This document shows positions 6,569 through 31,403 of a stretch of DNA of 32,173 nt, in pieces. This DNA is from an uncultured Spirochaeta sp. GTDB lineage: Bacteria; Spirochaetota; Spirochaetia; DTKZ01. A model generated the notes under the pieces. The model saw only the letters and a list, made by a program, of their open reading frames with translations. It had not been told where the DNA came from and did not search any database. The translations under genes and the position numbers were made by a program. Where the stretch lies: NCBI GenBank assembly GCA_937140905.1, contig CAKZQO010000307.1, positions 1 through 32,173 on the forward strand, in the 5' to 3' direction. Within the stretch, counting starts at the first letter, position 1. Every line of letters starts with the position of its first letter.

Positions 6569-6604
6569 ATCACGCCTCCCTTACTAGAATCTTTTCAATC
6601 TTTG

Positions 6605-6634
6605 ATTGTATCTTCCCTTATTAGTAGCTGTAAG
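6605..6634 (-). promoter_or_regulatory. Possible promoter of the ABC operon
   Basis: On the minus strand, TACAAT (6605-6610) lies 18 bases downstream of CTTACA (6629-6634). Both are partial matches to sigma-70 elements. The predicted start near 6598 would give a leader of about 30 bases containing the GGGAGG ribosome binding site at 6575-6580. The assignment is moderate because the -35 box is weak. Confidence 0.4.
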
Positions 6635-6672
6635 GAATGAAACATTCAGAAAAGGTATCATTTCTTCAGGAT

Positions 6673-6701
6673 TTGACAGCCCTCATCTGTATCTCTATAC
6701 T
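6673..6701 (+). promoter_or_regulatory. Sigma-70 promoter of the REC-AraC regulator (leaderless start)
   Basis: TTGACA (6673-6678), a 17-base spacer and TATACT (6696-6701) form a near-perfect sigma-70 promoter. The ATG of the response regulator begins at 6708, only 6 bases after the -10 box, which is where transcription itself should begin. No Shine-Dalgarno sequence fits between them, so the mRNA is predicted to be leaderless. Confidence 0.8.
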
Positions 6702-6707
6702 TTCCCT

Positions 6708-7466
6708 ATGTATACCCTCCTCCTTGTAGATGACGAGCGAGATATTCTGACGAATCTTTCCACATACTTTCCCTGGGAAAAAGGAGGGTTCGTCGTAGCA
6801 GGACAGGTAGAAACAGGGCAGGAGGCTCTGCGATTCATCCAGCAACAACTAGTGGATCTGATCCTTTGTGATATCCGAATGCCCGGAATTTCCGGGCTAG
6901 AGTTTGCGAAGAAAGTACAAGAGCTATCTTTACCCACTCGTATGGTTTTTCTCAGTGCCTACCGAAAGTTCGAGTATGCAAAAGAAGCCTTTCGATATGG
7001 GGTCCGGGATTACCTCCTAAAACCTCCAAACTTTCAGGAACTGTTGGATTGTTTACACCGAATAAAAAATGAACTGGATGCTGAAAGGGAAACCTATTTT
7101 AAGAACGATGGAGCCCTCAACGGTACTCTGGATCCAACGATTCAAATGATTAGGACCTACCTGCAAGGGAACCTCGATCATGCTTGCCTCCAGAGAGTGG
7201 CATCTCTAGTAGGAATGAATCCCAATTACCTCAGTTCTTTCTTCAAAGAAAGAACTGGAGTTCCCTTTTCAGAATACTTAATGAAACTGCGAATGGAAAA
7301 GGCTAGACAACTTCTCATGGATCCTCAGTACTCTGTACAACGGGTAAGTAAAATCGTAGGGTATTCGAACGTAAAGAACTTTACCAGAGCTTTCAAGTAT
7401 TATTTCGGCTTTCCTCCCAGTGCTCTTTGGAAAAGAATCCAAATCACTTCTCAATTGGGATCTTGA
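6708..7466 (+). CDS. Short response regulator: receiver plus AraC-type DNA-binding domain
   Basis: A 252-residue regulator with an N-terminal CheY-like domain: D8-D9, phospho-acceptor D55 in CDIRMPG, and K near residue 105 in DYLLKPP. A C-terminal AraC/XylS double helix-turn-helix (about 155-250) includes the GYSNVKNFTRAFK recognition region. It lacks the long linker of classic YesN proteins. I reject an upstream TTG start at 6606, because the receiver fold begins right at ATG 6708 and the promoter ends 6 bases before it. It diverges from the ABC operon, a possible target. Its 3' end overlaps that of the opposing sensor kinase by 23 bases, and that kinase may be its partner. Confidence 0.9.
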   Translation: MYTLLLVDDERDILTNLSTYFPWEKGGFVVAGQVETGQEALRFIQQQLVDLILCDIRMPGISGLEFAKKVQELSLPTRMVFLSAYRKFEYAKEAFRYGVRDYLLKPPNFQELLDCLHRIKNELDAERETYFKNDGALNGTLDPTIQMIRTYLQGNLDHACLQRVASLVGMNPNYLSSFFKERTGVPFSEYLMKLRMEKARQLLMDPQYSVQRVSKIVGYSNVKNFTRAFKYYFGFPPSALWKRIQITSQLGS

Positions 7467-9225
7467 GATCTACTGTAGTTCCCTGATCCGGACTACTTTC
7501 TAGATGAAACTCTACCCTTTGCCCGAACATAAGGCGAACTCGCCGTACGGTATTTACCAAACCAATATGTTCCGAGGCAATTGAAGCATCTTCTATTCTT
7601 TGTAACACTTCCGACACTCGATCTCCTGTCATCCCTCTTCCATCATCTCTCACCGTAAGATGAAAAAAACCACCCTCCCGTTTTGCTTCGACACGAATGT
7701 GAAGTCTCCTATTAGAATCATCCCCTATCCCATGGTTGATCGAGTTTTCAAGAAGTGGTTGCAGGAGCAGTTTGATGACTTTACAGGCCAACAATTCCCG
7801 ATCTATGTCCCATCGTACGCGAAAACGATCGGGGTAACGCAACGATAGGATCTCCAGATAGTAACGGGTGAACCGCACCTCATCCTTTAACTGAACCTCT
7901 CGGTGGACTGAATCAAGCGTATAATCCAGGATGCGGGACAAGCGGTCTACCATATACGTCACATCATTGGGGCCTCCAGTATAGGCCATTGCACGAAGAG
8001 AAATGGAGGTAAGGGTATTGAAGAGGAAATGGGGATTTATCTGAGCCTGAAGAGCCTGGAGTTCCAAGGCCTGTTCCCTTACCTTCAAATAGTTCCGTTC
8101 CAGAAAGGTGCGAACTATCTCATGGGTCAGTGCATAGAAACTATCTTCCCCTCCTTTCTCGATGGGTGCTTGAATGGAAAGCCCCTTCTCTGCTGCTTCA
8201 ATCGTGTCCAACATATATGCGATATTACGAAAGCTTCTCCGGGTAAAATAGATCACTGTTCCCAGGCCTAACAACAACGCTCCAAACGAAAGAATCACCG
8301 TCAAAGTTAAAAGAGTATAGGAGAGATGGTAGAATGTATCTCTTGGCACTAGCGAAAGATACAGCAGGGGATACTGGGCAGAAACAAGGTAAGAAGCCAT
8401 GAAGGTTTTTCCCCCTGTTTCGATCGAGAATATGTCTCGAACATCTTTACGATTGGTGAGGGCAGGCAGAATGATATTTGCGGGATCAACTTCTGAAGAT
8501 GTATGTACCAGTGTACCTAGAGAGGGATGTACGACAGCGAACAGTTGTTCTTTTCTATTCGAAATGGATCTTAGGATAGAAACAAGGTATTCCAGTTTGA
8601 TGTTCACCACGATCAACCCTTGGCTCTCCAACGTATAGGGTTCTAGAATATTACGGAATAAGGTGAGCACTGGTTGGGAAAGCTTTAGAGAAGGGAAAAG
8701 TAGAATAGAACGTCGGTTCAACCAAAAGCGCAGTTCTTCTTTCTTCTCCTCTAACACTGACAGCCACTCGGTATCGTAGAACTTATCCATATCCACAATA
8801 CCTTCCTGATTCGTAATAAGTTTGGCTGGAACATACTTGTTGAAGACATAGAGTGAATAAAGGTACCGCCGCACGTTCATTGCCGTAAGGAGACTATCCA
8901 TGAAAATGCGGTACTGTTTCGCATCTTCCAGAGTTCGAATACCGCGTTCCAAAAGGTACCTGGAGATTTGATTGAATCCAGGATCCGTTGCCAGACTGAG
9001 AGCGAAAGAATCAGTTTCATTGAGAATCAACTCGAAAGTATCTCTAACCTGATTGAGATTCCGGTAACTAAGAGCAGAAAGTTCTTCAGATACATACTTC
9101 TGGGAAAAAAAGATTCCTATAGTTCCTAGCAACACGAAAAAAATAAACGGAACTGTTGAAACTCCTAAATACCGAAGATATAGATTCTTCTTTACTTTAC
9201 CACTGATTTTAGAACCTTGACTCAT
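7444..9225 (-). CDS. Membrane sensor histidine kinase, YesM family
   Basis: A 593-residue kinase with an N-terminal membrane helix (about 17-37), a large extracytoplasmic sensor region, a second helix at about 300-325, a HAMP-like linker and the His_kinase domain with H399 in INPHFLFN. The Bergerat ATPase has N-box LLENSINHG and G1 box DDGRGM. The start overlaps the stop of the AraC regulator by 4 bases (ATGA), so those two are co-expressed. No receiver gene lies in the same operon; the nearest is the convergent regulator at 6708-7466, which overlaps its 3' end. The signal is unknown; sugar or polyol sensing is suggested by context only. Confidence 0.92.
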   Translation of the reverse strand: MSQGSKISGKVKKNLYLRYLGVSTVPFIFFVLLGTIGIFFSQKYVSEELSALSYRNLNQVRDTFELILNETDSFALSLATDPGFNQISRYLLERGIRTLEDAKQYRIFMDSLLTAMNVRRYLYSLYVFNKYVPAKLITNQEGIVDMDKFYDTEWLSVLEEKKEELRFWLNRRSILLFPSLKLSQPVLTLFRNILEPYTLESQGLIVVNIKLEYLVSILRSISNRKEQLFAVVHPSLGTLVHTSSEVDPANIILPALTNRKDVRDIFSIETGGKTFMASYLVSAQYPLLYLSLVPRDTFYHLSYTLLTLTVILSFGALLLGLGTVIYFTRRSFRNIAYMLDTIEAAEKGLSIQAPIEKGGEDSFYALTHEIVRTFLERNYLKVREQALELQALQAQINPHFLFNTLTSISLRAMAYTGGPNDVTYMVDRLSRILDYTLDSVHREVQLKDEVRFTRYYLEILSLRYPDRFRVRWDIDRELLACKVIKLLLQPLLENSINHGIGDDSNRRLHIRVEAKREGGFFHLTVRDDGRGMTGDRVSEVLQRIEDASIASEHIGLVNTVRRVRLMFGQRVEFHLESSPDQGTTVDLKIPIEK

Positions 9226-10007
9226 TGACTGCTATACCGAAAATCTGTAGGAGTCATACCGTACTTCCTATGGAAAGCGCGTATGAAACCACTCCCTGAT
9301 TCAAAACCACAAACCTCCGCAATCCGTTCGATAGTATAATTTGTTTCTTTGAGCATTTCCTCTGCCCGATGAAATCGTTCCTCTTGAAATAGTCTACGAG
9401 GAGAAACCCCCTTTACCTTATGGAAGAGCCTCCGTAAATGGGATGGGGAAACGAAAACAGCTTCTGCCACCCGTTCAATGGATATTGCCTCATGCATATG
9501 GTCTCGAAAGTACGATATGGCTCCAAATACAACCCTTTCCTCACTGTCTAATAGCCTGGTTCTGCTACAGTTCAAGTCCTCGGGTAATAAAAGAATACTC
9601 AGCTCGATCAGTAACCGTTCTGCATGTAGTTCCAAGAGAGCCGAACTTTCCCGGTACGCTTTTCCTGTTTCATCGAAGATTCTTAAAAGTGTACCAATTT
9701 GATCTTCCTTCAACTCTTTTTGTAAGAAGCCATTTCGAGAACAGAATTCTCCTAGAGGTTCCCGAACCCGAGAAAAATGGATTACCCGGATTTCGCATTC
9801 ACTATTTGGATCTCCTCCCCATCCATGGGGAGTACTAGGTGGAAAGACCCACAGGGTTAATGGCCTTACAGGATCGGAAGATCCATCCGGTTTCAATACA
9901 TGGCAGGTACCGGAAAGAAAAAGTTGAAACTCCCATCCTACTCGTCGATAAACAGGAATAGGACTCTTTCCATACCACCGTTTTCCTTCGTTCCAGTAAA
10001 GTATCAT
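9222..10007 (-). CDS. AraC family transcriptional regulator with N-terminal cupin-like sensor
   Basis: A 261-residue regulator. The N-terminal part (about 1-130) fits the AraC-type cupin ligand-binding fold: it has the PSTPHGWGG stretch near residue 60, often a metal or ligand loop. The C-terminal AraC/XylS double helix-turn-helix spans about 160-258, ending with GFESGSGFIRAFHRKYG and TPTDFR. It is the first gene of a two-gene unit with the sensor kinase. It is transcribed away from the Gfo/Idh/MocA gene at 10116, with 108 bases between them, so it is a good candidate regulator of that oxidoreductase. A purine stretch sits unusually close to the ATG, so the start is likely but not certain. 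Confidence 0.9.
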   Translation of the reverse strand: MILYWNEGKRWYGKSPIPVYRRVGWEFQLFLSGTCHVLKPDGSSDPVRPLTLWVFPPSTPHGWGGDPNSECEIRVIHFSRVREPLGEFCSRNGFLQKELKEDQIGTLLRIFDETGKAYRESSALLELHAERLLIELSILLLPEDLNCSRTRLLDSEERVVFGAISYFRDHMHEAISIERVAEAVFVSPSHLRRLFHKVKGVSPRRLFQEERFHRAEEMLKETNYTIERIAEVCGFESGSGFIRAFHRKYGMTPTDFRYSSQ

Positions 10008-10102
10008 CCTTCCTCTTCAATGAGCGATTCTGCATATTTTCCGATCGAAGGGGTCATTGGTCAATTCCCCTTTGACAGGGTACAGTATCTTTCGATGTTT
10101 TT

Positions 10103-10110
10103 AGAGGAGG
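10103..10110 (+). promoter_or_regulatory. Ribosome binding site of the oxidoreductase at 10116
   Basis: AGAGGAGG lies 5 bases before the ATG and fixes the start of the downstream oxidoreductase. The gap upstream also holds an inverted repeat (GTCAA, 7-base spacer, TTGAC near 10061-10077) that could be an operator. No convincing promoter pair could be chosen here for either direction. Confidence 0.75.
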
Positions 10111-10115
10111 CATAG

Positions 10116-11450
10116 ATGAGCACTAAAAGCCAGAAACGATACGCCATCGTAGGGTTGGGCAGTCGCTCTCGTATCTACTGGGAGGCCTTAAGTCAAAAGG
10201 AGTATCAACCTTATGGAAGCCTTGTAGCCTTCTGCGATGTCAACCAGAAGAGAATGAAATATGCCAACGAACTCCGTAAGGAGAAATACGGTCTTCCCCC
10301 GGTTCCCTGTTACACAGAGGATCGGTTCCTGGAAATGATAAGAAACGAAAAAGTAGACACTGTAATTGTCACCACAATTGATCGAACCCACCATCGATAC
10401 ATCATTCAGTCTATGGAAGCGGGATGTGATGTAATCACAGAAAAGCCACTCACCACCACAGCAGAACGCTGCGAAGCAATCCTCCAAACGGTAGAAAGAA
10501 CAGGAAAGTGTCTTCGAGTAACCTTCAATTACCGGTATGCTCCCCGTAACCAACGAGTGAAAGAACTCCTATCCCAAGGTGTAATCGGAACTATACTTTC
10601 TGTTCATTTCGAATGGCTTCTAGATACAAGACATGGAGCTGATTACTTTAGACGTTGGCATAGGGACAAACGCAACTCTGGAGGATTGATGGTTCATAAG
10701 GCTACCCATCATTTCGATCTGGTAAACTGGTGGCTGGATACTCGTCCTGTTTCAGTCTATGCATCTGGGGGATTAAAATTTTATGGTAAGGAAAACGCAG
10801 AATTAAGAGGTGAACGGTATCCATACACCCGAACCACTGGTATTCCCGATGCAAAGGGAAACCCTTTCGCATTGGACCTATCCCAGGACCTAAATCTAAG
10901 CCGGCTCTACTTGGAAGCTGAAACAGAAGACGGATATCTAAGGGATCAGAACGTGTTCGGGGATGGGATTTCCATAGAAGATGATATAGCAGTGTTGGTG
11001 AACTATCAGAATGGTGCTTCTATGAGTTATCATTTAACCGCCTATTCCCCCTGGGAAGGTTTTCGAATTGCCTTCAATGGCACGAAAGGAAGGCTCGAAT
11101 ACGAAGTAGTGGAAACCTCCTATGTTTCCGGCGCAGAAGAAGATATCAATCGCCCCGATATTCGGGATGCCAAAGAAATCCAAATTCAGGAAGAAGCCAC
11201 CGTTATCCTGCGACCACTCTGGGGGAAGCCTCACGGCATCCCTCTTCCCTCTGGACGTGCAGGTGGTCATGGAGGCGCGGATACAATTCTACTACACGAT
11301 GTATTCATAGGAGATCGGGAAGATCCGCTTGGGTTGCGGGCCGATCATAAAGCAGGAGCCTGGTCGATCCTTACTGGTATTGCCGCTAACAAGAGTATGG
11401 AAGAAAAGCGTCTAGTCTTTATCAAAGAAATTGTACCAGCAACGCTATGA
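10116..11450 (+). CDS. Gfo/Idh/MocA family oxidoreductase
   Basis: A 444-residue NAD(P)-dependent dehydrogenase. The Rossmann loop is AIVGLGSRSR near residues 9-18 and the catalytic-lysine motif is TEKPL near residue 110. A conserved histidine pair follows in HKATHHFDLVNWW. That HKxxHxxD arrangement is common in family members acting on sugars, inositols or amino sugars. The length is above the usual 330-400 residues, with extra sequence in the C-terminal half. It diverges from the AraC-kinase unit and is convergent with the TRAP operon. It shares little obvious sequence with the oxidoreductase at 2167-3357 beyond the family motifs, so the two probably act on different substrates. Confidence 0.9.
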   Translation: MSTKSQKRYAIVGLGSRSRIYWEALSQKEYQPYGSLVAFCDVNQKRMKYANELRKEKYGLPPVPCYTEDRFLEMIRNEKVDTVIVTTIDRTHHRYIIQSMEAGCDVITEKPLTTTAERCEAILQTVERTGKCLRVTFNYRYAPRNQRVKELLSQGVIGTILSVHFEWLLDTRHGADYFRRWHRDKRNSGGLMVHKATHHFDLVNWWLDTRPVSVYASGGLKFYGKENAELRGERYPYTRTTGIPDAKGNPFALDLSQDLNLSRLYLEAETEDGYLRDQNVFGDGISIEDDIAVLVNYQNGASMSYHLTAYSPWEGFRIAFNGTKGRLEYEVVETSYVSGAEEDINRPDIRDAKEIQIQEEATVILRPLWGKPHGIPLPSGRAGGHGGADTILLHDVFIGDREDPLGLRADHKAGAWSILTGIAANKSMEEKRLVFIKEIVPATL

Positions 11451-11500
11451 CTATTGAAGTAATAAAGCTATTCTACCTCGATTCGATGAGCTTTTGCTGA

Positions 11501-12787
11501 TTATACATTCCCCATGAAAAGTTTAGGCAAGATCAGGGCAATATCGGGAACGTACATCACCAGGAAGAACACCACAATGAGGATGCACACCATCGGCAGA
11601 ATCGGTTTCGCGATCTTTCCCATTGGGAGACCCGTTATGGCCGATGCCACATAGATATCGATGGCTACCGGAGGCGTGGCCATCCCGATGGCAAGGCCAA
11701 TAGTCAGGACTACACCGAAATGGAGCAGGTTCCCGCCTACCCCCGTTACCGCGGGAATGAAGATGGGGGTAAGGATGATGAGAGCCGAGGCTGTCTCCAT
11801 GAACATGCCCGCTAAGAGAATAATGATCCCTATCACAAGGTATACCAGCACAGGGATGTTCCCTGTAATCCCCAGCAAGGCGGAAGCCACAGCCTGGGGA
11901 ATCTGATAGAACGCCAGGCCCCAACCGAATAGTTTTGCCGTAGCGATGATGAACATGATCAACGCGGAAGTAACACCCGAGCCGATCACCAGGCGATAGA
12001 ACTTTTTGAAGTCCAGCCCCCTATAGATGAACACAGCCACAAACACTGAGTACACCACCGCAACGGCCGCCGCTTCCGAGGGGGTGAAGATGCCCGAAAA
12101 AATACCCCCCAGGATGATCACGGGAGCCAGTAGTCCCCAGAAAGAATCGAGGAACTTCCTCCACACCTCTTTCACAGGGAAGGAAGTACCTTTAGGATAG
12201 TTCCGTACCTTAGCCTTATACAATGCCCAAGCGATGAGTCCCAACCCCATCATCGTCCCCGGAATAAAGCCCCCCACGAAGAGTTTCGCTACCGACTCGC
12301 CGGCGATAACCGCATACAGGACCATGGGGACGCTTGGGGGAATCACTACTCCTATTGTCCCTGCCGAGGCGATGAGGGCTGCGGAATCGGCTACATCGTA
12401 CCCCTTGTTCTTCATGTCAGGAAGCAGGGAAGCTCCTACCGCTGCGGTAGTAGCGGCTCCAGATCCGGAAATAGCTGCGATGAACATGGAAGCTAACACC
12501 GATACCACGGAAAGCCCTCCGCGAACTCGGCCTAAGGCTGCTTCAGCGAAGGATACGATCCGCTCGGAAATACCTCCCTTCGCTAGGATGTCTCCTGCCA
12601 ATACGAAAAAGGGTACTGCCACAAGGGCAAACGAATTGTTTCCCTCCAACAAGGTTTGCGGTACCATTTGTAACGGGATTCCCATGCTAATGAACACGAT
12701 TAGGGCGGATAACCCAATGGCCAACCCAATGGGTACACCGATCAGCATGAGAACAAAGAAAGCCCCGAAGAGTAAGTACCCCATCAA
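11501..12787 (-). CDS. dctM: TRAP transporter large permease, DctM family
   Basis: A 428-residue inner-membrane protein with about 12 hydrophobic segments. It has features of the DctM ion-transporter domain: ISGSGAATTAAVGASLLPDM near residue 110, then GTIGVVIPPSVPM. It is the substrate-translocating subunit and uses a sodium or proton gradient rather than ATP. Its start overlaps the stop of the small permease gene by 4 bases. The length matches the family norm (about 425). Substrate class cannot be fixed from DctM; TRAP systems commonly carry C4-dicarboxylates, keto acids or sugar acids. Confidence 0.95.
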   Translation of the reverse strand: MMGYLLFGAFFVLMLIGVPIGLAIGLSALIVFISMGIPLQMVPQTLLEGNNSFALVAVPFFVLAGDILAKGGISERIVSFAEAALGRVRGGLSVVSVLASMFIAAISGSGAATTAAVGASLLPDMKNKGYDVADSAALIASAGTIGVVIPPSVPMVLYAVIAGESVAKLFVGGFIPGTMMGLGLIAWALYKAKVRNYPKGTSFPVKEVWRKFLDSFWGLLAPVIILGGIFSGIFTPSEAAAVAVVYSVFVAVFIYRGLDFKKFYRLVIGSGVTSALIMFIIATAKLFGWGLAFYQIPQAVASALLGITGNIPVLVYLVIGIIILLAGMFMETASALIILTPIFIPAVTGVGGNLLHFGVVLTIGLAIGMATPPVAIDIYVASAITGLPMGKIAKPILPMVCILIVVFFLVMYVPDIALILPKLFMGNV

Positions 12788-21709: not shown

Positions 21710-22993
21710 ATGCAGGGGAATCAGATCATCCAGCACCTTGATCAGGACTATACCGAACCTATCCGCGATCCTCTATGGAAACACATCTATCTTTCCCCAC
21801 AGATGATGACCATTGTAGCTTCCGAACCCTTCCAGAAGCTCTATCGAATCAAGCAGCTAGGTATCACTCACCTCGTGTACCCGGGAGCCACTCATACCCG
21901 ATTCGTACACAGCCTTGGTGTATTCCACCTCTCCAAGCGGATCCTCCGAGGACTCCTTGCGTCTGAACATGCTCCTCCCTTGAGTCTAGAAGGAGTGAAA
22001 GCTTTCCTCTGTGCAGCCCTGCTCCACGATATCGGACACTTTCCCTTTACCCATTCTCTAAAGGAATTACCGCTTCGGGAACACGAATCCCTCACCGCAG
22101 ACTTGATCTATGCTCCTCCATTGGAGAATCTCTTGAAACATCAAGTAGGAACCGAACCCTGGATGGTTGCCGCCATAGTAGATCACCATTTGGATGATGA
22201 AGGGTGTTCCGAAATCCCCTTTTTCCGCAACCTCCTATCAGGAGTACTGGACCCGGACAAGCTCGACTATCTCAACAGAGATGCCTACTTCTGTGGAGTT
22301 CCCTACGGTATTCAGGACACGGACTTCGTGATCGGGAGGATCCACCCTCATCCCCAAAGGGGTATCTCGATAGATCTCACCGGCTTGCCCGCAGCGGAAA
22401 ATGTGCTGTTCTCTAAATACCTCATGTATAGAGCCGTTTACTGGCACCGAACAGTAAGGATCGCTACGTCCATGATCAAGAAGGCCGTGTTTCTCGGGCT
22501 TCGGGATGGAATGCTCAGTCCGGATGATCTATACGGGCTGGACGACGAAGAGTTCTTCCATACCACCGTGGAACAAACCTACCGCCCCTTTTCTCTCATT
22601 CGCCGTGTCGCCTCTCGAAGGCTATTGAAATCCGTTTGGGAAACCCCTTTTGATCCCTCATGCCCACCCATGAAGAAACTTCTGGACCTGGAGTATCGAA
22701 GTACAAAAGAGGAAGAAATCGCCCGTATCCTATCGAAAGAAATGGGTAATTCCATAGAGCCTGAGGATGTGGTAATAGACATTCCCGAACAAATCTCCTT
22801 CGAGATAGATATCCCCATCCTGTTACCCGGAGGGAATCTAGTGGAATATGAACATGCAGGTTCCGTATTTTCTCCACCCGTGGTAGAAGGATTCGTGAAA
22901 ACCCTCCGGGTTCTCCGGGTGGCGGTAATTCCCGAAGTACTCGATGCCCTCCCCCATGTGTCTACCCTACTGAAAGAGTTCCTCCGAACTTGA
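21710..22993 (+). CDS. HD-domain phosphohydrolase, dNTPase-like
   Basis: A 427-residue enzyme of the HD superfamily, close to the YwfO/SAMHD1-type deoxynucleotide triphosphohydrolases. Metal ligands: H67 in HTRFVHSLG, H106-D107 in LLHDIGHFPFTHS, and the later aspartate in DPDKLDYLNRDAYFCG near residue 185. Family members hydrolyse dNTPs to deoxynucleoside and triphosphate. It could therefore affect dNTP pools made by the nrd operon 4 kb away, but this is a context guess. The C-terminal third (about 280-427) is family-specific and unrecognised. It is transcribed alone or with the genes downstream, divergent from the lipoprotein. Confidence 0.88.
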   Translation: MQGNQIIQHLDQDYTEPIRDPLWKHIYLSPQMMTIVASEPFQKLYRIKQLGITHLVYPGATHTRFVHSLGVFHLSKRILRGLLASEHAPPLSLEGVKAFLCAALLHDIGHFPFTHSLKELPLREHESLTADLIYAPPLENLLKHQVGTEPWMVAAIVDHHLDDEGCSEIPFFRNLLSGVLDPDKLDYLNRDAYFCGVPYGIQDTDFVIGRIHPHPQRGISIDLTGLPAAENVLFSKYLMYRAVYWHRTVRIATSMIKKAVFLGLRDGMLSPDDLYGLDDEEFFHTTVEQTYRPFSLIRRVASRRLLKSVWETPFDPSCPPMKKLLDLEYRSTKEEEIARILSKEMGNSIEPEDVVIDIPEQISFEIDIPILLPGGNLVEYEHAGSVFSPPVVEGFVKTLRVLRVAVIPEVLDALPHVSTLLKEFLRT

Positions 22994-23018
22994 TCAGAAT
23001 AGGATTCTGGAATATGTT
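22990..23018 (+). promoter_or_regulatory. Promoter of the gene at 23025 (leaderless start)
   Basis: TTGATC (22990-22995), a 17-base spacer and TATGTT (23013-23018) end 6 bases before ATG 23025. The -35 box contains the stop codon of the HD gene. No Shine-Dalgarno sequence is present in the six bases TAAAGT, so a leaderless start is predicted. Confidence 0.55.
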
Positions 23019-23024
23019 TAAAGT

Positions 23025-23483
23025 ATGAAATACTCCAAGCTAATGAAAGAACGGATCCATCGAACTCAGATTCTTTTTAAGGAATTAGGGTATGAACTAT
23101 TCGACCCTGAGGAGAGCGATGGAGCCTTTACTGCATCCTTTCAAAACGAAGAAGGATACCAAGGAAGCTTCTTCATCGACGAGGATAGCAAGTTCCTCGA
23201 AATCGTGTATACCATCTCATTTTCCAACACCTTACAGGAATACCTTCGATCTAGAATAGGAGATATCTTTCGCACCTGTTATGAGTACGGATGCTACCTG
23301 AACATCCAATTCACCAAGCACGAGACATCCCTTTCGATCTTCACCAAGATCTACTATGCGGGTTTGAATTACTACTCTTTAAAAGAGACTTTGAGGGATT
23401 TCAGAGCAGCCGTACTGGAGATTCGGGAGTTGACGGAAATCAAGAGCGAATATCGCAAGGGAGATTCTCATGGAGATACATAA
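23025..23483 (+). CDS. Small acidic protein of unknown function
   Basis: A 152-residue soluble protein that I do not recognise. The pattern of alternating helices and strands (helix near 1-20, strands around FTASFQNEEGYQGSFFIDED, helix after SNTLQEY, strands YLNIQFTK) faintly resembles the YbjN/secretion-chaperone fold. That resemblance is by eye and weak. It overlaps the ComFB-like gene by 14 bases, so the two are translationally coupled and probably act in one process. Confidence 0.75.
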   Translation: MKYSKLMKERIHRTQILFKELGYELFDPEESDGAFTASFQNEEGYQGSFFIDEDSKFLEIVYTISFSNTLQEYLRSRIGDIFRTCYEYGCYLNIQFTKHETSLSIFTKIYYAGLNYYSLKETLRDFRAAVLEIRELTEIKSEYRKGDSHGDT

Positions 23484-24156
23484 CCTCATGGAAGATATTG
23501 TCCTCCGGATGGTGGATGAAGTGCTTCTGGAGGAATCAAAAAAGAAGGAGAAGGAGTATCTCTTAAGCCCGCAATGCAGGATGGATTTGGCCTGTTTTAT
23601 ATTGAACCGTATCCCTCAGTACTATGTTACCTCTGGTCGAGGGATGGCCCATACAGAACGCGCCCTCAAAGAAAACCCCCAGCTTAGGGTAGATATCGTC
23701 ACCCTCATCCATGAAGGCCTCAAACGAATCGAAACAGTTAGACGACCGTATTATGACTCCCCCTTGAAATCCCGGTCGATCGAGGGTCCGGCCTTCATTC
23801 TCCCTACCATCAAAGGGAAACTCCTCAACTGCACGAATTTCGAACCTATCCAGGGAGTATCCATAGAGTTACGCTGGGAAGACGATCTTCTTCCCATGAT
23901 CGACAACCGATGGCAGAATCCCTTCTATCTCGATGAAAAACTGGAAGGAACATTTCTATTCCTTCCCCATCCGATTCCTGCCTCAAAACCTGGAGAGCAG
24001 CGAACCTTCGAATTGGAAATCCGGGTTGAGGATGACCGATTCGAACCCTTTCATCACTACTTCAAACTCGAAATGGTAGCCGAAGAGGACATGGAAGCCA
24101 CCCCATGGAAGAATCCCGACCACAAGCTTCCCGAATTGTTCTTAATTCCCAAATAA
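23470..24156 (+). CDS. ComFB family protein with C-terminal beta-rich domain
   Basis: A 228-residue protein. Residues 1-95 match the ComFB pattern: start HNLMEDIVLRMVDEVL, then CRMDLACFILNRIPQYYVTSGRG. ComFB-type proteins have been reported as receptors of cyclic dinucleotides, so a signalling role is plausible. The usual paired cysteine motif for zinc is reduced to C36 and C42. Residues about 110-228 form a second, beta-rich part that begins IKGKLLNCTNFEPIQGVSIEL, reminiscent of a carboxypeptidase regulatory-like fold. That C-terminal addition is not part of classic short ComFB. It is co-translated with the small unknown gene before it and lies near two PilZ genes. Confidence 0.75.
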   Translation: MEIHNLMEDIVLRMVDEVLLEESKKKEKEYLLSPQCRMDLACFILNRIPQYYVTSGRGMAHTERALKENPQLRVDIVTLIHEGLKRIETVRRPYYDSPLKSRSIEGPAFILPTIKGKLLNCTNFEPIQGVSIELRWEDDLLPMIDNRWQNPFYLDEKLEGTFLFLPHPIPASKPGEQRTFELEIRVEDDRFEPFHHYFKLEMVAEEDMEATPWKNPDHKLPELFLIPK

Positions 24157-24163
24157 ACTCGAT

Positions 24164-24451
24164 TCAATAGATTTCCGAACGAATTTGAACGTCCTGAATC
24201 CTGCCTGGTACCTCGTTCTCCACAAAATTGAGAACTTTCATCATTACCTGTTCGCCGTACTGTTTCGAATTGGACACTACCGCACCCCCGATCTGGGAAA
24301 AACGAAGGGAATCCTGGAGATCTACTTCTGCAACGGAAATCTTGAATCGAACCCGCAGTTTTTCCCGAAGGGAGTTTACGATCCGCCTCTTTTCCTTGAT
24401 GGATCCAATGTCTGGTAGCTCGATGATTAATTGAATCATGGAGATCACCAT
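24164..24451 (-). CDS. DUF503 family protein
   Basis: A 95-residue protein with the DUF503 (YlxP-like) pattern: MIQLIIELPDIGSIKEKRRI, VNSLREKLRVRFKISVAEVD and later QIGGAVVSNS. DUF503 proteins are small, widespread and functionally ill-defined; some lie beside ribosome-binding factor A genes. AGGG seven bases before ATG 24451 supports that start over the internal ATG at 24439. It is the last gene of a three-gene minus-strand unit and converges on the ComFB-like gene, with 7 bases between the stops. Confidence 0.85.
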   Translation of the reverse strand: MVISMIQLIIELPDIGSIKEKRRIVNSLREKLRVRFKISVAEVDLQDSLRFSQIGGAVVSNSKQYGEQVMMKVLNFVENEVPGRIQDVQIRSEIY

Positions 24452-24455
24452 ACCG

Positions 24456-25568
24456 TTACCCTTTCTTGAACAGTTCGGAAACCGCCTCCCACTTTAAATC
24501 GGAGGTTTCCCCTTCTCCCATGCTCAAGTTCCTCTGTTTCAGAGGAAGGAACTCCTCATTGTACTGTTCTGCCAACTGGAATACTTCGTCCTCCTTAAAG
24601 TGAGGAGGGATCTTGACTTCCAAATTGTACGAGGGTTCTTTGAATCCTTTCAGCATCACAAAGAGAGGGTCTGTCACCGTGATGGCAAAGTGAGGAGCAT
24701 AATAGAGAAGGAGAACGAGGAGAAGACCCAGAACGATTATGAAGATCAGAAGACTCTGCTCTGCCTGGAGTCGAGTCAAGGGTCGATAATCGAAATACAA
24801 CTCTAAAGAGCCTCGTTGTTCGTAAAAATAGTCGTATGGACCAAATCTTGTGGCTAGATAAAAAGAATCGTGACGAAGGAAAATATCCTTTCCTTCTGCC
24901 TTGACTTTGAGGAGAAAAGGAAGGACTCGAGCAACTGTCTGAACAGTAGAATTCAACTCGGCAGAGGATGCTTTATTCAGGGTATCCGAAGTAGATTCCA
25001 CCGACTCCCAATACATTTGTTCGAAGGATTTTCCAGATACGCTTTGGAGTAAAAAGGATCCTACGGAAAAAACCAATATACAGGTGGTTAACACAGAAGT
25101 AGCAATCTTACCCACATGCCGCTGGGCCATTACCGAATTGGTTTGTTTCAGTTGCCTAACCACCTTCAGCATTCGAAGCACCCTGAGGATCCGGGCCACC
25201 CGAACGATCTTGACAGTTTTCAATAAATTGAGGGATCTGCCCAGCCCAAACACGGGGACTCCACCTGCTAAAAGCCCGTAGATCACGGGACCGGAACTGA
25301 ACAAAAGAAGCGGGATGGATGCTATCAGATCTATCCATCCATACCCGCGAAAAAAGTACGTCTTCGCCTCGCCATTCACATACGACAAGTATAAACGAAC
25401 CAAAAACTCTATGGTAAAGAATAGGTCGAATAGGAATCCAAGGTACAGGAATAGCCTTCGAATACTCCAGGGCCAATCCGCTAGAACTGCCACATCGTCG
25501 ACTACCGTCTGGAAGAGGACGAGGATGATGGCTCCTACGACCAGGTTTTCCAAGAAGGATCTTTTCAT
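24456..25568 (-). CDS. Voltage-sensor-like membrane protein with extracytoplasmic domain and HAMP-like tail
   Basis: A 370-residue membrane protein. Residues about 5-142 form a voltage-sensor module. The S2-like segment has the charge-transfer pattern FTIEFLVRLY and the S3-like segment has WIDLIASIP. The S4-like helix (about 112-142) carries a basic residue at nearly every third position (KIVRVARILRVLRMLKVVRQLK). No pore loop or TVGYG-type filter follows. Instead there is a helix (about 155-177), an extracytoplasmic stretch of about 90 residues, another helix (274-295) and a cytoplasmic part resembling HAMP (TVTDPLFVML to about residue 345). No kinase or methyl-accepting output is attached. 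It lies 3 bases after the preceding gene and 4 before DUF503. Annotation pipelines would likely call it an ion transporter. Confidence 0.8.
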   Translation of the reverse strand: MKRSFLENLVVGAIILVLFQTVVDDVAVLADWPWSIRRLFLYLGFLFDLFFTIEFLVRLYLSYVNGEAKTYFFRGYGWIDLIASIPLLLFSSGPVIYGLLAGGVPVFGLGRSLNLLKTVKIVRVARILRVLRMLKVVRQLKQTNSVMAQRHVGKIATSVLTTCILVFSVGSFLLQSVSGKSFEQMYWESVESTSDTLNKASSAELNSTVQTVARVLPFLLKVKAEGKDIFLRHDSFYLATRFGPYDYFYEQRGSLELYFDYRPLTRLQAEQSLLIFIIVLGLLLVLLLYYAPHFAITVTDPLFVMLKGFKEPSYNLEVKIPPHFKEDEVFQLAEQYNEEFLPLKQRNLSMGEGETSDLKWEAVSELFKKG

Positions 25569-25571
25569 ACC

Positions 25572-26501
25572 CTACCACCCCATTTCTGCAGCGATCATGT
25601 ACAGTTCATCCAGCATCTTGATATCGAAACCATAGAACTTGTAGTTCTTCCGTGCCACGTTGAACCAACTTTTATCTGGAGTATCCGCTCCCCGATCTAC
25701 CCTCAACCCGGCTCGAAAAGTCCGATACCGGGAAGCGAAAATACTAGCCAAGCGAGCCGTAGCTTCGATGAACCGATTCTCTCCAAAGGACATGTTGGCA
25801 TGAATGGCGCTTTCCACTATGGAAACAGGCAAGAGGGGAATCCGTTTCTGCAAGGCTCGGATCACCTTTTCGGCAAAAGGGCCTTGGATCACGCCAGCAA
25901 TTCGATCCGTGTACGTGTGCATGCCCTCCGAAATATAGAGGACGTAAGCGCTCTTTAATAAAAGGGTTACCGCCAAGATTCCTTTTATTTCCTCTTTGCT
26001 CATCCGTAATCGCTGTACTTTTGTGATTTCGAAGTGAATATAAGATTTACGTTCGAAGATCTCGTCAATGTATCGAAAGCACCCGCCCTGTTGGATCGCG
26101 GTCAAAGGCCCTGTAGACACCCTTCTTCCTTCAGGGGATTGGAGAATGTCCTTCAATAGAGCGATGAGCTGAGCCCTTACTTGAACTTCTGGAACAGCTT
26201 GCTTGGTGAGGAAGGAGAGAAAAGAAAGAGATAGATCAGACTGAAGGAAAGGTTCAAGAATGGCCCACAAATCTCGATCGGTAAGCTCGAAAAGAGCCTG
26301 AATCAGAATGGGAAGAAGGGTGGTCCAGCTCTTCCCGGGGAAGAACTCATTCGATTTTAAGAGAGGCGCCAGTTGAGAAGCATGAGTGGAAAAAAGTTGG
26401 AGGATCTGTTCTTCCCGTTGAAGGGGGGTGTATCCTTGTAACATCGGATTGGACAGAAGTCTCTCTAGAAAAAGCTTCGCCTTGTCGACTTCCGGTGGCA
26501 T
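25572..26501 (-). CDS. Conserved-looking protein of unknown function
   Basis: A 309-residue, mostly helical, soluble protein with no signal peptide or clear membrane segment; I do not recognise it. The N-terminal half looks like helical repeats rich in leucine (LPILIQALFELTDRDLWAIL). The C-terminal half ends with FYGFDIKMLDELYMIAAEMGW. ATG 26501 is preferred over a TTG at 26534 because a promoter-like pair ends 6 bases before it and TTG 26534 lies inside the -35 box. It heads a unit with the voltage-sensor-like gene (3-base gap), so the two products may interact at the membrane. Confidence 0.75.
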   Translation of the reverse strand: MPPEVDKAKLFLERLLSNPMLQGYTPLQREEQILQLFSTHASQLAPLLKSNEFFPGKSWTTLLPILIQALFELTDRDLWAILEPFLQSDLSLSFLSFLTKQAVPEVQVRAQLIALLKDILQSPEGRRVSTGPLTAIQQGGCFRYIDEIFERKSYIHFEITKVQRLRMSKEEIKGILAVTLLLKSAYVLYISEGMHTYTDRIAGVIQGPFAEKVIRALQKRIPLLPVSIVESAIHANMSFGENRFIEATARLASIFASRYRTFRAGLRVDRGADTPDKSWFNVARKNYKFYGFDIKMLDELYMIAAEMGW

Positions 26502-26564: not shown

Positions 26565-29500
26565 GTGAAACGACTGACTCTCCAAGTTGTACTCCTCTGT
26601 TTCCTTCCCCACTTTCTCGCTGCGCAAACCCCGCCCAAAAATCCCGAGAAAGAAGCTCCAGAAACAGTATTTCAAACGAAAATGGGAGACACGGATGTTG
26701 ACCTACGATTGGATGGGTTTTGGGATGCATCCTTGAGTGGATCTATCGGTTTGGCGGTCGTTCCGGGAAAAGGGATTCAGTACCCTTCGGTATTTCCTGG
26801 ATTTGCGGATGGGCTAATCTACGAGCAAAAGCCAAACCTTATTCTGGCCCTTTGGTTGATGGATCGATACTTCTTTGAGACTACCCTTCAAGAAAAACGA
26901 CAGTTGAATAGCTATGTTCTCGGATACCAGGGAAAGGAGGGAGAAGTCCTCCAATCCATTCGAGCGGGAAACAAGGGGATCGAGATCTCTCCCTATCCCT
27001 ACATGGATTTTCCCGGAGGTAGCAGAAGTTCCCCTGGGATCGCCGCTCGCCTACAGACGGAACACACACAGCATGAGTTCCTTCTCCGATACGACCCTTC
27101 TCAACCGGTAAAAAAAACCTACGTGGGGAAAAACTCAGTCGAGGAGCTTCGGATCGATCCCTCTGCCTATGTCCAAGGCAGGTTCTTCATTTTGCCCGAC
27201 ACGGAAGTCGATTCAATAGAAGTGTATCTCGAAGACTATAAGGGTCCATTCCTGGGGAGCGATGGTCGCAGGTATCGGAGGGCTACCGAATTCGATGTTT
27301 CCCTATCCCGCACTGAAGGATTAGTGAGCTTGCAGAAACCGTCGGCGGGGAGAGTAGTAGTGTACTACGAGAAAGGAGGGTTACCGGTTGGTTCTTCCTC
27401 TCTTGGGAAAAAAGCCTTACCCTCCTTCGTAAAGAAAGATGCTAATGCTCCCTGGGAGGTAGATCCTCTGGGAGAAGGGGAAGACTTTTCCTGGGCTAGA
27501 GGTCCCTATTTGGATGCTCCCATCGATCGGTTTAAAGTCACCCTTAGGGGGAAACCTTCCCTCCTTCTGTACGATCCCGGCACCTTTTCTCCTTTTCAGG
27601 ATTATGGAGCGTACACAACCCAGAGCACCGCAGTTCCGACTGGATCGAACATTCAGGTTAGGATAGTGAAACGAGGATCCGACGTTACTGTTTCTCTGAG
27701 TTATCCTATACAACCCATCTACACAGCCAGTGAGTCCCTTCTACGAATGGTTCTTACTGAGGGCAGTCGCCGTTCCTTTCAAGCTCGGTTCCCCTTTGCC
27801 GAGGAAGCTCCCCTCCTATATGGACCCGATTCCCGGAAGTTGGGGAGCGCAGTAGACTTCGAAATCCTCATCCAAACGTACACTCCCGTTCAATCCTACA
27901 GCCTGTCAACCGACGTGATTCCGGGTTCTGTCCGGGTGTTTCGAAATGGACGGGAGGAAAAGCTATTCAGTGTAGATTACGAGAAAGGCACGGTTAGCCT
28001 TCCCTACGAGCCGGCAGCTTCGGATCGAATCGAGATCTACTACCGTACGGCATCTGGCCAAGGGGCAGGCGGAGATATCCTGTTTGGAATGGGAAGTTCC
28101 TTACGATGGAGCGAATCGTTGGAGGGCAAGTTCGCTTTAGGGGTACGATGGAATGTATTGAAAGGTAGTTACAGTACGGAACCTAACGACCACACGGGGA
28201 TCGTGGGATTATCTACGCAAGTGTCTTATAAAAATGAGAATCTAAAGCTCACCACCGATGGTGCCATTGTGTACTACAACCCAGATACTTCCGGTCTCCT
28301 CCGTCTATTAGGAATGGAGGGATACGATTTAACCCTGGAAATCTCGAAGAACAATGCCTTCCCCTCTTCTGTCCCCGACTCTTCTTTTTTCGCTGGGAAA
28401 CTGAATCAAGAGAACCGGGGTAAACTTTTCTTCAAGAATTACGAAACGGTGGATCTTTTGGGTGGAACTGTACTGAACCCCTATACCTGGAACCCTCCTC
28501 AGGGAGCCCAATTCCCCTATCAAAACGGTTCCCTTCCAGGCCCCTACACAGCATCCGCTTCTTCGGAAGGGTTCAATCGGGTGCTCGTACTGGACTACCA
28601 ATTTAGTAGCTCCGAGGAGTGGGTAGGGGCTCAGATGAATCTAAACACGGGTTTCGGTTCCTCTTTAGATCTATCCGAGGTGACAGCCATCCGGTTCGCC
28701 TACAAGGTAGTTGCCCATACAGGCTCCCAGACTTCTCTCAATTTCCAAATTGGTTCCATCAGTGAAGACCTGGACGGAGATGGAATTCTGGATGAAGAAG
28801 TCGGCTCTAGCTCTCGGGGATTTCCCTTCAACCAGGGAACGCTGACCTTGTACGTGGGGGCAGGACAGGAAGGTTTGGGAAACGATCAGCGGGATTCAGA
28901 GGACGCGAACCGAAACGGGATACTGGAAATAGACAATCCCGCCTTGATCTTTCCGGGACCAGGATCATCCGAAGGAAGCTTGCTCATAGATGAATCTTCG
29001 AAGGGAGGTTGGGAAACCGCCCTGATCCGTATTCCCTATACGGAACGGAGCCGGTTGAAGGCCGTACGGTCCATCCGGCTTATCGTCCGGAAGGAAGGCT
29101 CCGGTGAGGTGGAAGGGAAGATTCTGATTGGTCCCCTTGTGTTCGAAGGTTCTACCCTTCCCCATCAGGTGGTAGGAAGGGGGGAAATGGAAGTACGGGA
29201 GATCTACGAATCCCTGGCGGATATTTCTCCGCCAATTCCGTTGGAAAAGGTCGATCCCGACCGAATCAAGACCTTTCATTCGGGGGGCACAGACCAGAAG
29301 GTGTTGGAAGTAAAGTGGAAGAACCTTGGCGACGGTGACAAGTGGGCGTTGTATAGTCCTACCCGGGAAATCCCTCCTGAGCAGTATCGGGAGGTAAACC
29401 TGTACATCCGTACAGCTTCTCTAGGGGGCACTGGTTCGGAGGCACGGTACATATTCCAGTACACGGATCCGGAGGGAAAGGGAGCGTACGTAGAAATCCC

Positions 29501-31403
29501 CGCATTAGCGGAGAATCGATGGGAGAAGTTGACGGTAGATCTTACCCGAAAGAAGGCCTACTTAGGGGGAAGGGAACTTTCGAATGTTCGGGTAGATTCC
29601 AACTTTGGGAAGCTAAACCGTTTTTTATTTGCAGGTACAGGCGCTCAGGAAGGGACAGTGTACTTAGACGAACTCTACCTATCCAGCCCACAGGCAGGTT
29701 GGGGATTCGCGGGTTCTTTGGAAGGATCCTTCTCGATCCCTGGAACAATAGTAACGATTGGGGATATAGCTGTAATGAGAAATTTGATCATTTCACAAAA
29801 GCTCTCCGCCCGTACTCAAGCTTTCCAGGGAAGACTCGAGGAAGAAACCCCTAGTCTATTGAGTTCTTCCACGGAAGGATCCATAGACCTTCTAGGGGTT
29901 CTCCGAACAGAAGGTTCTTTTACTCTTGATCGTCTACCCGACCGAATCCAGTATGAAGGAGGTCATAGAATACAGTTTCCCGCAGAAGGCGGGATCGTAA
30001 CCGTACGGGATCAATTCAAACGGAGTTACCGTACTCAAGAAGCTTTTCTTAGTCGAATGAATCGGTTGGATTTGAACCTTGGCTCCCCTTTTACCCTTTC
30101 CCTAGGATCAGAGACAACCTTTTTCACTCAAACCCTGTCTCAGACCTGGGATGCGAATCTCTCCAGTGCCCCTACATCGGCATTCTCGCTTCGATTAGAT
30201 GGAAAACTTTCCCACTTCGCAGAGGGCTATTCCTTCGAAACAGAACCCTACGCCAGTTCCTGGATTCATTCCTACCAGTTAATCCTTCCCTACACCTCGG
30301 GAATCAACATCCAGCGGGAAGGCCTCTTTCGATGGGAAACTCGAGTCGAGGGTGAGGTAGTAGGAGTACGCATCACTCCCGAAGTGTCGTACGTGAACAC
30401 GGGGGAAAAAGATGGTCTTCAACGAACCGTGGAAAAGCTACTTCTGGAAGTTCCTCTCCGATTCGGCGGACAGGAAAAGAATCTTGGTAATTCTCTTACC
30501 TTCTCATACTTAAGACAAGGAACGAACACCCGATCCGTGCCTCAGTATGGGAACTTCCCATCGGATCTTTTCACGGTGAGAGATGCGATCTATGACCAAA
30601 CCTATTTCTACCGTTCCTACCCCTTCTATGAGTTGATGATTCCAGGCAGATGGTCGAATTTTTCCTCTGACACCTTAGGTCTTTCCTCTGCCGAGTATGT
30701 TTCACAATTCGGGGTTTCTTTCTCCCGTTCCTATGGTTCTTACTGGCGGGACCTTATCGTTCCCGCCCAAGGGGAGTGCTCTTTCAAAAAAACAATCTCA
30801 CGATCCAACGATACCCTTACCACAACGAACCAGTTGGACCTCTCCCTATTCGCCTCCGCTTTAAACCTCTTTGGACAGGCAGGATCGTATCCATCTACTC
30901 CCTTATGGTACACGGATGAGTACCAGCACAAGCATACTCTATCCATTTTACAGAAAGAAGAGGAATCCACCTGGGAGTGGAAGGTTTCTTCCCAACAGAA
31001 GGTCTTTCTATTCGGAGAAAAAGAACAGAAGGCTACATTGGAACACATGATCTACATCGAGCGCACCGATCGGTTCTCCTATTGGGGCTCTCTTGGGATA
31101 AGTTACACCTGGAAGGGTATCATCCTGAGGGATTTTGACACCTCTTACCTTCGTAGAGCCCGAGACCTGGGAGCCTTCTACCTGCATACGGAAAAGATAG
31201 AGTATCGGTACGAAGACAAGGAAGGCTGGAAACAGTACTTGGTGCTCGGGCACGAAACTGCGCTAACCTTTCCGAAGTACGGCTACATAAAAGCAGAGAT
31301 ACGTCTTGGGCTAGGATTCGAGGAAGATTACTCAGGTCTACCTCCAGGATATAGAATCCTCTTGGGTCTTTCGGGCGGCATCTCTGCTCATTTTACCTTC
31401 TGA
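26565..31403 (+). CDS. Very large SprA-like outer-membrane beta-barrel protein
   Basis: A 1612-residue exported protein starting at GTG. A signal peptide (MKRLTLQVVLLCFLPHFLAAQ) is followed by almost entirely beta-strand-like sequence. The N-terminal part resembles the Bacteroidota protein SprA: a stretch like GYQGKEGEVLQSIRAGNKGI near residues 119-138, followed by PGIAARLQTEHTQHEF, then a strand pattern ending EVYLEDYKG. Two calcium-loop-like motifs, DLDGDGILDEE (about 735) and DANRNGILEID (about 779), are also a SprA-like trait. The last residues, GLSGGISAHFTF, fit a barrel beta-signal ending in phenylalanine. SprA is the translocon of type IX secretion; no other such gene is nearby. The barrel call is firm; homology to SprA is from memory of its pattern. 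Confidence 0.75.
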   Translation: MKRLTLQVVLLCFLPHFLAAQTPPKNPEKEAPETVFQTKMGDTDVDLRLDGFWDASLSGSIGLAVVPGKGIQYPSVFPGFADGLIYEQKPNLILALWLMDRYFFETTLQEKRQLNSYVLGYQGKEGEVLQSIRAGNKGIEISPYPYMDFPGGSRSSPGIAARLQTEHTQHEFLLRYDPSQPVKKTYVGKNSVEELRIDPSAYVQGRFFILPDTEVDSIEVYLEDYKGPFLGSDGRRYRRATEFDVSLSRTEGLVSLQKPSAGRVVVYYEKGGLPVGSSSLGKKALPSFVKKDANAPWEVDPLGEGEDFSWARGPYLDAPIDRFKVTLRGKPSLLLYDPGTFSPFQDYGAYTTQSTAVPTGSNIQVRIVKRGSDVTVSLSYPIQPIYTASESLLRMVLTEGSRRSFQARFPFAEEAPLLYGPDSRKLGSAVDFEILIQTYTPVQSYSLSTDVIPGSVRVFRNGREEKLFSVDYEKGTVSLPYEPAASDRIEIYYRTASGQGAGGDILFGMGSSLRWSESLEGKFALGVRWNVLKGSYSTEPNDHTGIVGLSTQVSYKNENLKLTTDGAIVYYNPDTSGLLRLLGMEGYDLTLEISKNNAFPSSVPDSSFFAGKLNQENRGKLFFKNYETVDLLGGTVLNPYTWNPPQGAQFPYQNGSLPGPYTASASSEGFNRVLVLDYQFSSSEEWVGAQMNLNTGFGSSLDLSEVTAIRFAYKVVAHTGSQTSLNFQIGSISEDLDGDGILDEEVGSSSRGFPFNQGTLTLYVGAGQEGLGNDQRDSEDANRNGILEIDNPALIFPGPGSSEGSLLIDESSKGGWETALIRIPYTERSRLKAVRSIRLIVRKEGSGEVEGKILIGPLVFEGSTLPHQVVGRGEMEVREIYESLADISPPIPLEKVDPDRIKTFHSGGTDQKVLEVKWKNLGDGDKWALYSPTREIPPEQYREVNLYIRTASLGGTGSEARYIFQYTDPEGKGAYVEIPALAENRWEKLTVDLTRKKAYLGGRELSNVRVDSNFGKLNRFLFAGTGAQEGTVYLDELYLSSPQAGWGFAGSLEGSFSIPGTIVTIGDIAVMRNLIISQKLSARTQAFQGRLEEETPSLLSSSTEGSIDLLGVLRTEGSFTLDRLPDRIQYEGGHRIQFPAEGGIVTVRDQFKRSYRTQEAFLSRMNRLDLNLGSPFTLSLGSETTFFTQTLSQTWDANLSSAPTSAFSLRLDGKLSHFAEGYSFETEPYASSWIHSYQLILPYTSGINIQREGLFRWETRVEGEVVGVRITPEVSYVNTGEKDGLQRTVEKLLLEVPLRFGGQEKNLGNSLTFSYLRQGTNTRSVPQYGNFPSDLFTVRDAIYDQTYFYRSYPFYELMIPGRWSNFSSDTLGLSSAEYVSQFGVSFSRSYGSYWRDLIVPAQGECSFKKTISRSNDTLTTTNQLDLSLFASALNLFGQAGSYPSTPLWYTDEYQHKHTLSILQKEEESTWEWKVSSQQKVFLFGEKEQKATLEHMIYIERTDRFSYWGSLGISYTWKGIILRDFDTSYLRRARDLGAFYLHTEKIEYRYEDKEGWKQYLVLGHETALTFPKYGYIKAEIRLGLGFEEDYSGLPPGYRILLGLSGGISAHFTF

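Follow-up and report, generated by a model that had tools for sequence, protein, structure and literature searches.

The stretch of DNA analyzed here (the window) comprises 32,173 nucleotides of contig CAKZQO010000307.1 from an uncultured Spirochaeta sp. (assembly GCA_937140905.1). Its minus strand encodes a 370-residue protein, which combines a voltage-sensor module with a receptor-like relay domain instead of a pore, in a tight two-gene unit with a soluble protein of unknown family. A third gene probably belongs to the same operon. The features of this locus are:

25572..26501, minus strand: partner protein of 309 aa (ATG start; the list of open reading frames gives 320 aa from an upstream GTG), predicted to be all-helical, no known family
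24456..25568, minus strand: pore-less voltage-sensor receptor of 370 aa (ATG start), with S1-S4 (residues 2-139), TM5 (146-177), outside domain (178-262), TM6 (262-297), HAMP-like tail (about 298-347) and a short acidic C-terminus
25143..25565, minus strand: voltage-sensor module S1-S4 of this receptor, residues 2-142
24783..25037, minus strand: outside (periplasmic) domain, residues 178-262, in place of the pore loop
24528..24677, minus strand: HAMP-like cytoplasmic tail, residues 298-347
24164..24451, minus strand: DUF503 protein of 95 aa (Pfam DUF503, E=6e-27), third gene of the probable operon with a 4-bp gap; the same family occurs in 15 of 21 loci compared

The N-terminal part is a true voltage-sensor module. 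The only Pfam match of the protein is Ion_trans (PF00520), which covers residues 15-190, i.e. S1-S4 and TM5 (E=3e-14; 53.2 bits against a cut-off of 25), and 33 of 34 family members match this profile at E<=10 (best 3e-16). S4 contains nine Lys/Arg residues at a spacing of three (K117, K120, R123, R126, R129, R132, K135, R138, K141), whereas the longest such run in 20,000 shuffles of the same protein was six; the first seven of these positions are conserved in 33-34 of 34 members. Furthermore, the positions of the charge-transfer centre according to our alignment to Shaker (F51 and E54 in S2, D80 in S3) are conserved in 33-34 of 34 members.

What follows the voltage sensor is not the pore of a canonical channel. 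The AlphaFold2 model, built from 34 relatives (mean pLDDT 78.9), predicts S1 at residues 2-29, S2 at 34-64, S3 at 77-100, S4 at 115-139, TM5 at 146-177, an outside domain at about 178-262 (helix, helix, two strands, helix, two strands), TM6 at 262-297, a short helix at 301-310, a helix at 328-350 and a disordered end at 351-370. The outside stretch of about 85 residues agrees with the estimate of about 90 in the sequence-only reading, which had proposed a voltage-sensor module joined to an extracytoplasmic sensor and a HAMP-like domain without a pore; this observation is confirmed. No TVGYG-like selectivity filter lies after S4 in any of 98 paired homologues. In the homologue at locus L205 (L numbers denote the loci compared, G numbers genomes), the link between TM5 and TM6 is reduced to about a dozen residues, which is too short for a pore helix and filter. 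Conservation points in the same direction: it is highest in S4 (0.79) and 0.67 in the HAMP-like tail, against 0.53 in TM5, 0.44 in TM6 and 0.39 in the outside domain, which is the reverse of a channel, where the pore would be among the best conserved parts. The top structural match is the sensor kinase WalK (TM-sensor-TM-HAMP; prob 0.98, E-value 0.05), and Kv1.2 is the next membrane protein (E-value 0.28); because these E-values are weak, we use them only as support for the layout.

What is more challenging is the classification of the tail after residue 296. None of 34 whole proteins matches the Pfam HAMP profile (PF00672), but when 15 tails were scanned alone, HAMP was the only recurring family (3 of 15, best E=0.028). 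In a profile-profile comparison (hhalign) with 19 HAMPs of the same genome, the tail scores 21.6, against at most 13.5 in 20 column shuffles and at most 9.1 for other parts of the protein. A second comparison aligns the tail over nearly the whole HAMP (positions 6-47 of 53) and right after a TM helix, with a gap of three in the first helix; yet the hhalign probability is only 34-44%, and the first helix (AS1) is short in the model. We call the tail HAMP-like rather than a certified HAMP. PDB sequence searches with profiles of the tail and the outside domain gave nothing significant. A fused output domain was not found either, since Ion_trans is the only widely recurrent Pfam family among 34 members.

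The gene of the 309-residue protein ends 3 bp before the receptor starts, and in 98 of 99 receptor-partner pairs both genes lie on one strand with a median gap of 4 nt. Among 126 complete homologues (identical sequences merged), 99 have both tail and partner, 17 have the tail without partner (two of them, L069 and L092, are cut by contig ends upstream), none has the partner without tail, and 10 have neither. A sensitive search found no partner in nine genomes whose homologue lacks the tail (G004-G008, G085, G095 and those of L134 and L135), although several of these are incomplete assemblies. On a tree built without the tail columns, the tail changed four times, and three independent tail differences stand on well-supported branches; the partner goes the same way or does not differ, never the other way. 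However, 3-4 independent losses cannot reach significance in a sign test, and we regard this as a pattern only. The dependence is moreover one-way, since the partner can be absent while the tail remains (L192-L204 except L194, L077, L137). Covariation in the paired alignment gave no usable contact signal. The predicted structure of the partner is confident (pLDDT 91) but matches no solved fold well (fold hits only at E>=1.2) and no known family; a kinship with HD-GYP or HDOD, suggested by weak fold hits, is rejected at the sequence level, because hhalign scores are no better than those of shuffles. In G111, an apparent fusion (a 685-aa open frame) is a 369-aa ORF beside its partner.

Borrelia-like genomes keep tail and partner, yet the first half of S4 is missing in L055 and L056, and only a short charge run is present in L218. 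L205-L207 lack the outside domain and keep tail and partner; L206 and L207 have also lost most S4 charges, while L205 keeps seven in a run. By contrast, L134 and L135 keep S4 but lack tail and partner. Thus, S4 and the outside domain are optional inputs in side lineages, while the partner follows the tail.

The family is widespread in Spirochaetota. In an even draw of 247 genomes of the phylum, 75 hold the receptor (E<=1e-10) and 65 the partner (E<=1e-3). All 79 loci kept from a scan of 84,980 species genomes carry spirochaete titles; because the remaining matches were not listed, occurrence outside Spirochaetota is not excluded. The genomes behind L055, L056 and L218 are unnamed, and we call them Borrelia-like from their size and from the flaA-cheA-cheR/cheW-cheX-response regulator row beside the pair, which in L055 (3131-11625) is convergent to the pair.

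We consider it more likely than not that the protein is a transmembrane receptor and not a channel: a voltage-sensor module is linked through TM5, a small periplasmic domain and TM6 to a HAMP-like cytoplasmic relay, which acts on a dedicated soluble partner. In this model, membrane potential, and perhaps a periplasmic cue as second input, shifts S4 and TM6, the HAMP-like relay changes packing, and the 309-residue protein binds the tail and passes the signal on. The architecture rests on sequence profiles and a predicted model, whereas voltage as the physiological signal, direct binding and the final output are inferred. The proposal of the sequence-only reading that the co-transcribed 309-residue protein is the first candidate for a partner is strongly supported, but its suggestion that membrane potential is converted into a conformational signal remains an inference; several lineages keep tail and partner with an eroded S4, so voltage input is not universal.

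Other interpretations are less likely but should be considered. An ion channel, with either a non-canonical pore formed by TM5 and TM6 or a voltage-gated proton path through S1-S4 as in Hv1, is improbable: S1-S4 is intact and followed by two membrane helices as in a 6TM channel, isolated voltage sensors such as Hv1 can apparently conduct protons, and acidic residues in S1 (E/D24 and D/E25) are conserved in all 34 members; but in addition to the missing filter, the low conservation of TM5 and TM6 and the short linker in L205, the Hv1 motif RxWRxxR occurs in none of 98 homologues. It is also doubtful that the protein is a membrane anchor or a sensor of a periplasmic ligand which merely inherited a channel scaffold, with voltage playing no part and the HAMP-like tail only docking the partner. 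In favor of such a role, S4 charges are eroded in Borrelia-like genomes, L206/L207 and L202 while the tail persists, and the modelled outside domain has a helix-strand arrangement reminiscent of small sensor domains; in the main clade, however, S4 is the most conserved segment and the outside domain among the least conserved, and the latter is dispensable in L205-L207.

Similarly, we think it unlikely that the 309-residue protein is only a chaperone or assembly factor and that the output is some unlinked protein. Its variable genomic neighbors give no output clue, and the tail is kept in several genomes without it; yet it is absent whenever the tail is absent although the membrane part remains, where a membrane-assembly factor would still be needed, and copies exist without an adjacent receptor (L209, L210).

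Voltage sensors without a classical pore and HAMP-containing receptors are each known. Voltage-sensing phosphatases (Ci-VSP/VSP) and Hv1 likewise appear to have an S1-S4 module not followed by a selectivity filter, and in VSP a cytoplasmic effector part would follow the sensor; in the spirochaete protein, TM5, a periplasmic domain and TM6 follow S4, the cytoplasmic part is HAMP-like, there is no enzyme in the chain, and the Hv1 motif is absent. Chemoreceptors and sensor kinases such as WalK share the order TM, periplasmic domain, TM and HAMP-like relay, but here this part is preceded by a whole voltage sensor, the HAMP-like region is sub-threshold and shortened, and there is no kinase or methyl-accepting output, but a separate soluble partner. 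With 6TM voltage-gated K+ channels (Kv family) the protein shares S1-S4 with regularly spaced charges and S2/S3 counter-charges, but it has no pore loop or filter, its S5-S6 part is poorly conserved, and it carries a HAMP-like tail. We found no description of a HAMP-linked voltage sensor among the open papers searched, which do not cover subscription journals. Bacteria use and vary their membrane potential, but to our knowledge no dedicated receptor that reads it through a voltage-sensor module and passes it to a soluble partner has been described; it is possible, though tentative, that the family represents a new class of bacterial signal receptor, in which a channel-type voltage sensor drives a HAMP-like relay and a cognate soluble partner, conserved across Spirochaetota.

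The genomic neighborhood is too variable outside the main clade to guide functional inference, and a promoter/terminator scan gave no more hits than shuffles. Within the window, a 1612-aa protein (26565-31403, plus strand) is divergent from the pair; it has a very weak match to the outer-membrane translocon SprA (E=0.006, far below cut-off), and its family is present in 19 of 21 loci compared. In L210, a second copy of the partner without a receptor beside it (6577-7503) stands divergent from a relative of this SprA-like gene (7643-12379). On the other side of the pair, a conserved row of an HD-domain protein, a 152-aa protein of no family and a ComFB-domain protein (21710-24156, plus strand) lies next to it in many Spirochaetia loci. 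Homologues with tail but no partner sit beside other genes, which are not shown to be partners: a caspase-like predicted lipoprotein of 285-310 aa just upstream in L193, L195, L197, L199 and L200 (Peptidase_C14 match tested in L195, L197 and L199), which at first resembled a diverged partner; a polysaccharide deacetylase downstream in L192 and L195; a cyclic-nucleotide-binding 6TM channel directly downstream in L203 (6114-7454); and a protein with a weak GGDEF match in L202. Finally, one homologue of 508 aa (L024:1468-2994 and L051:9641-11167, plus strand) has a long acidic, Asp/Ser-rich C-terminal extension after the tail.
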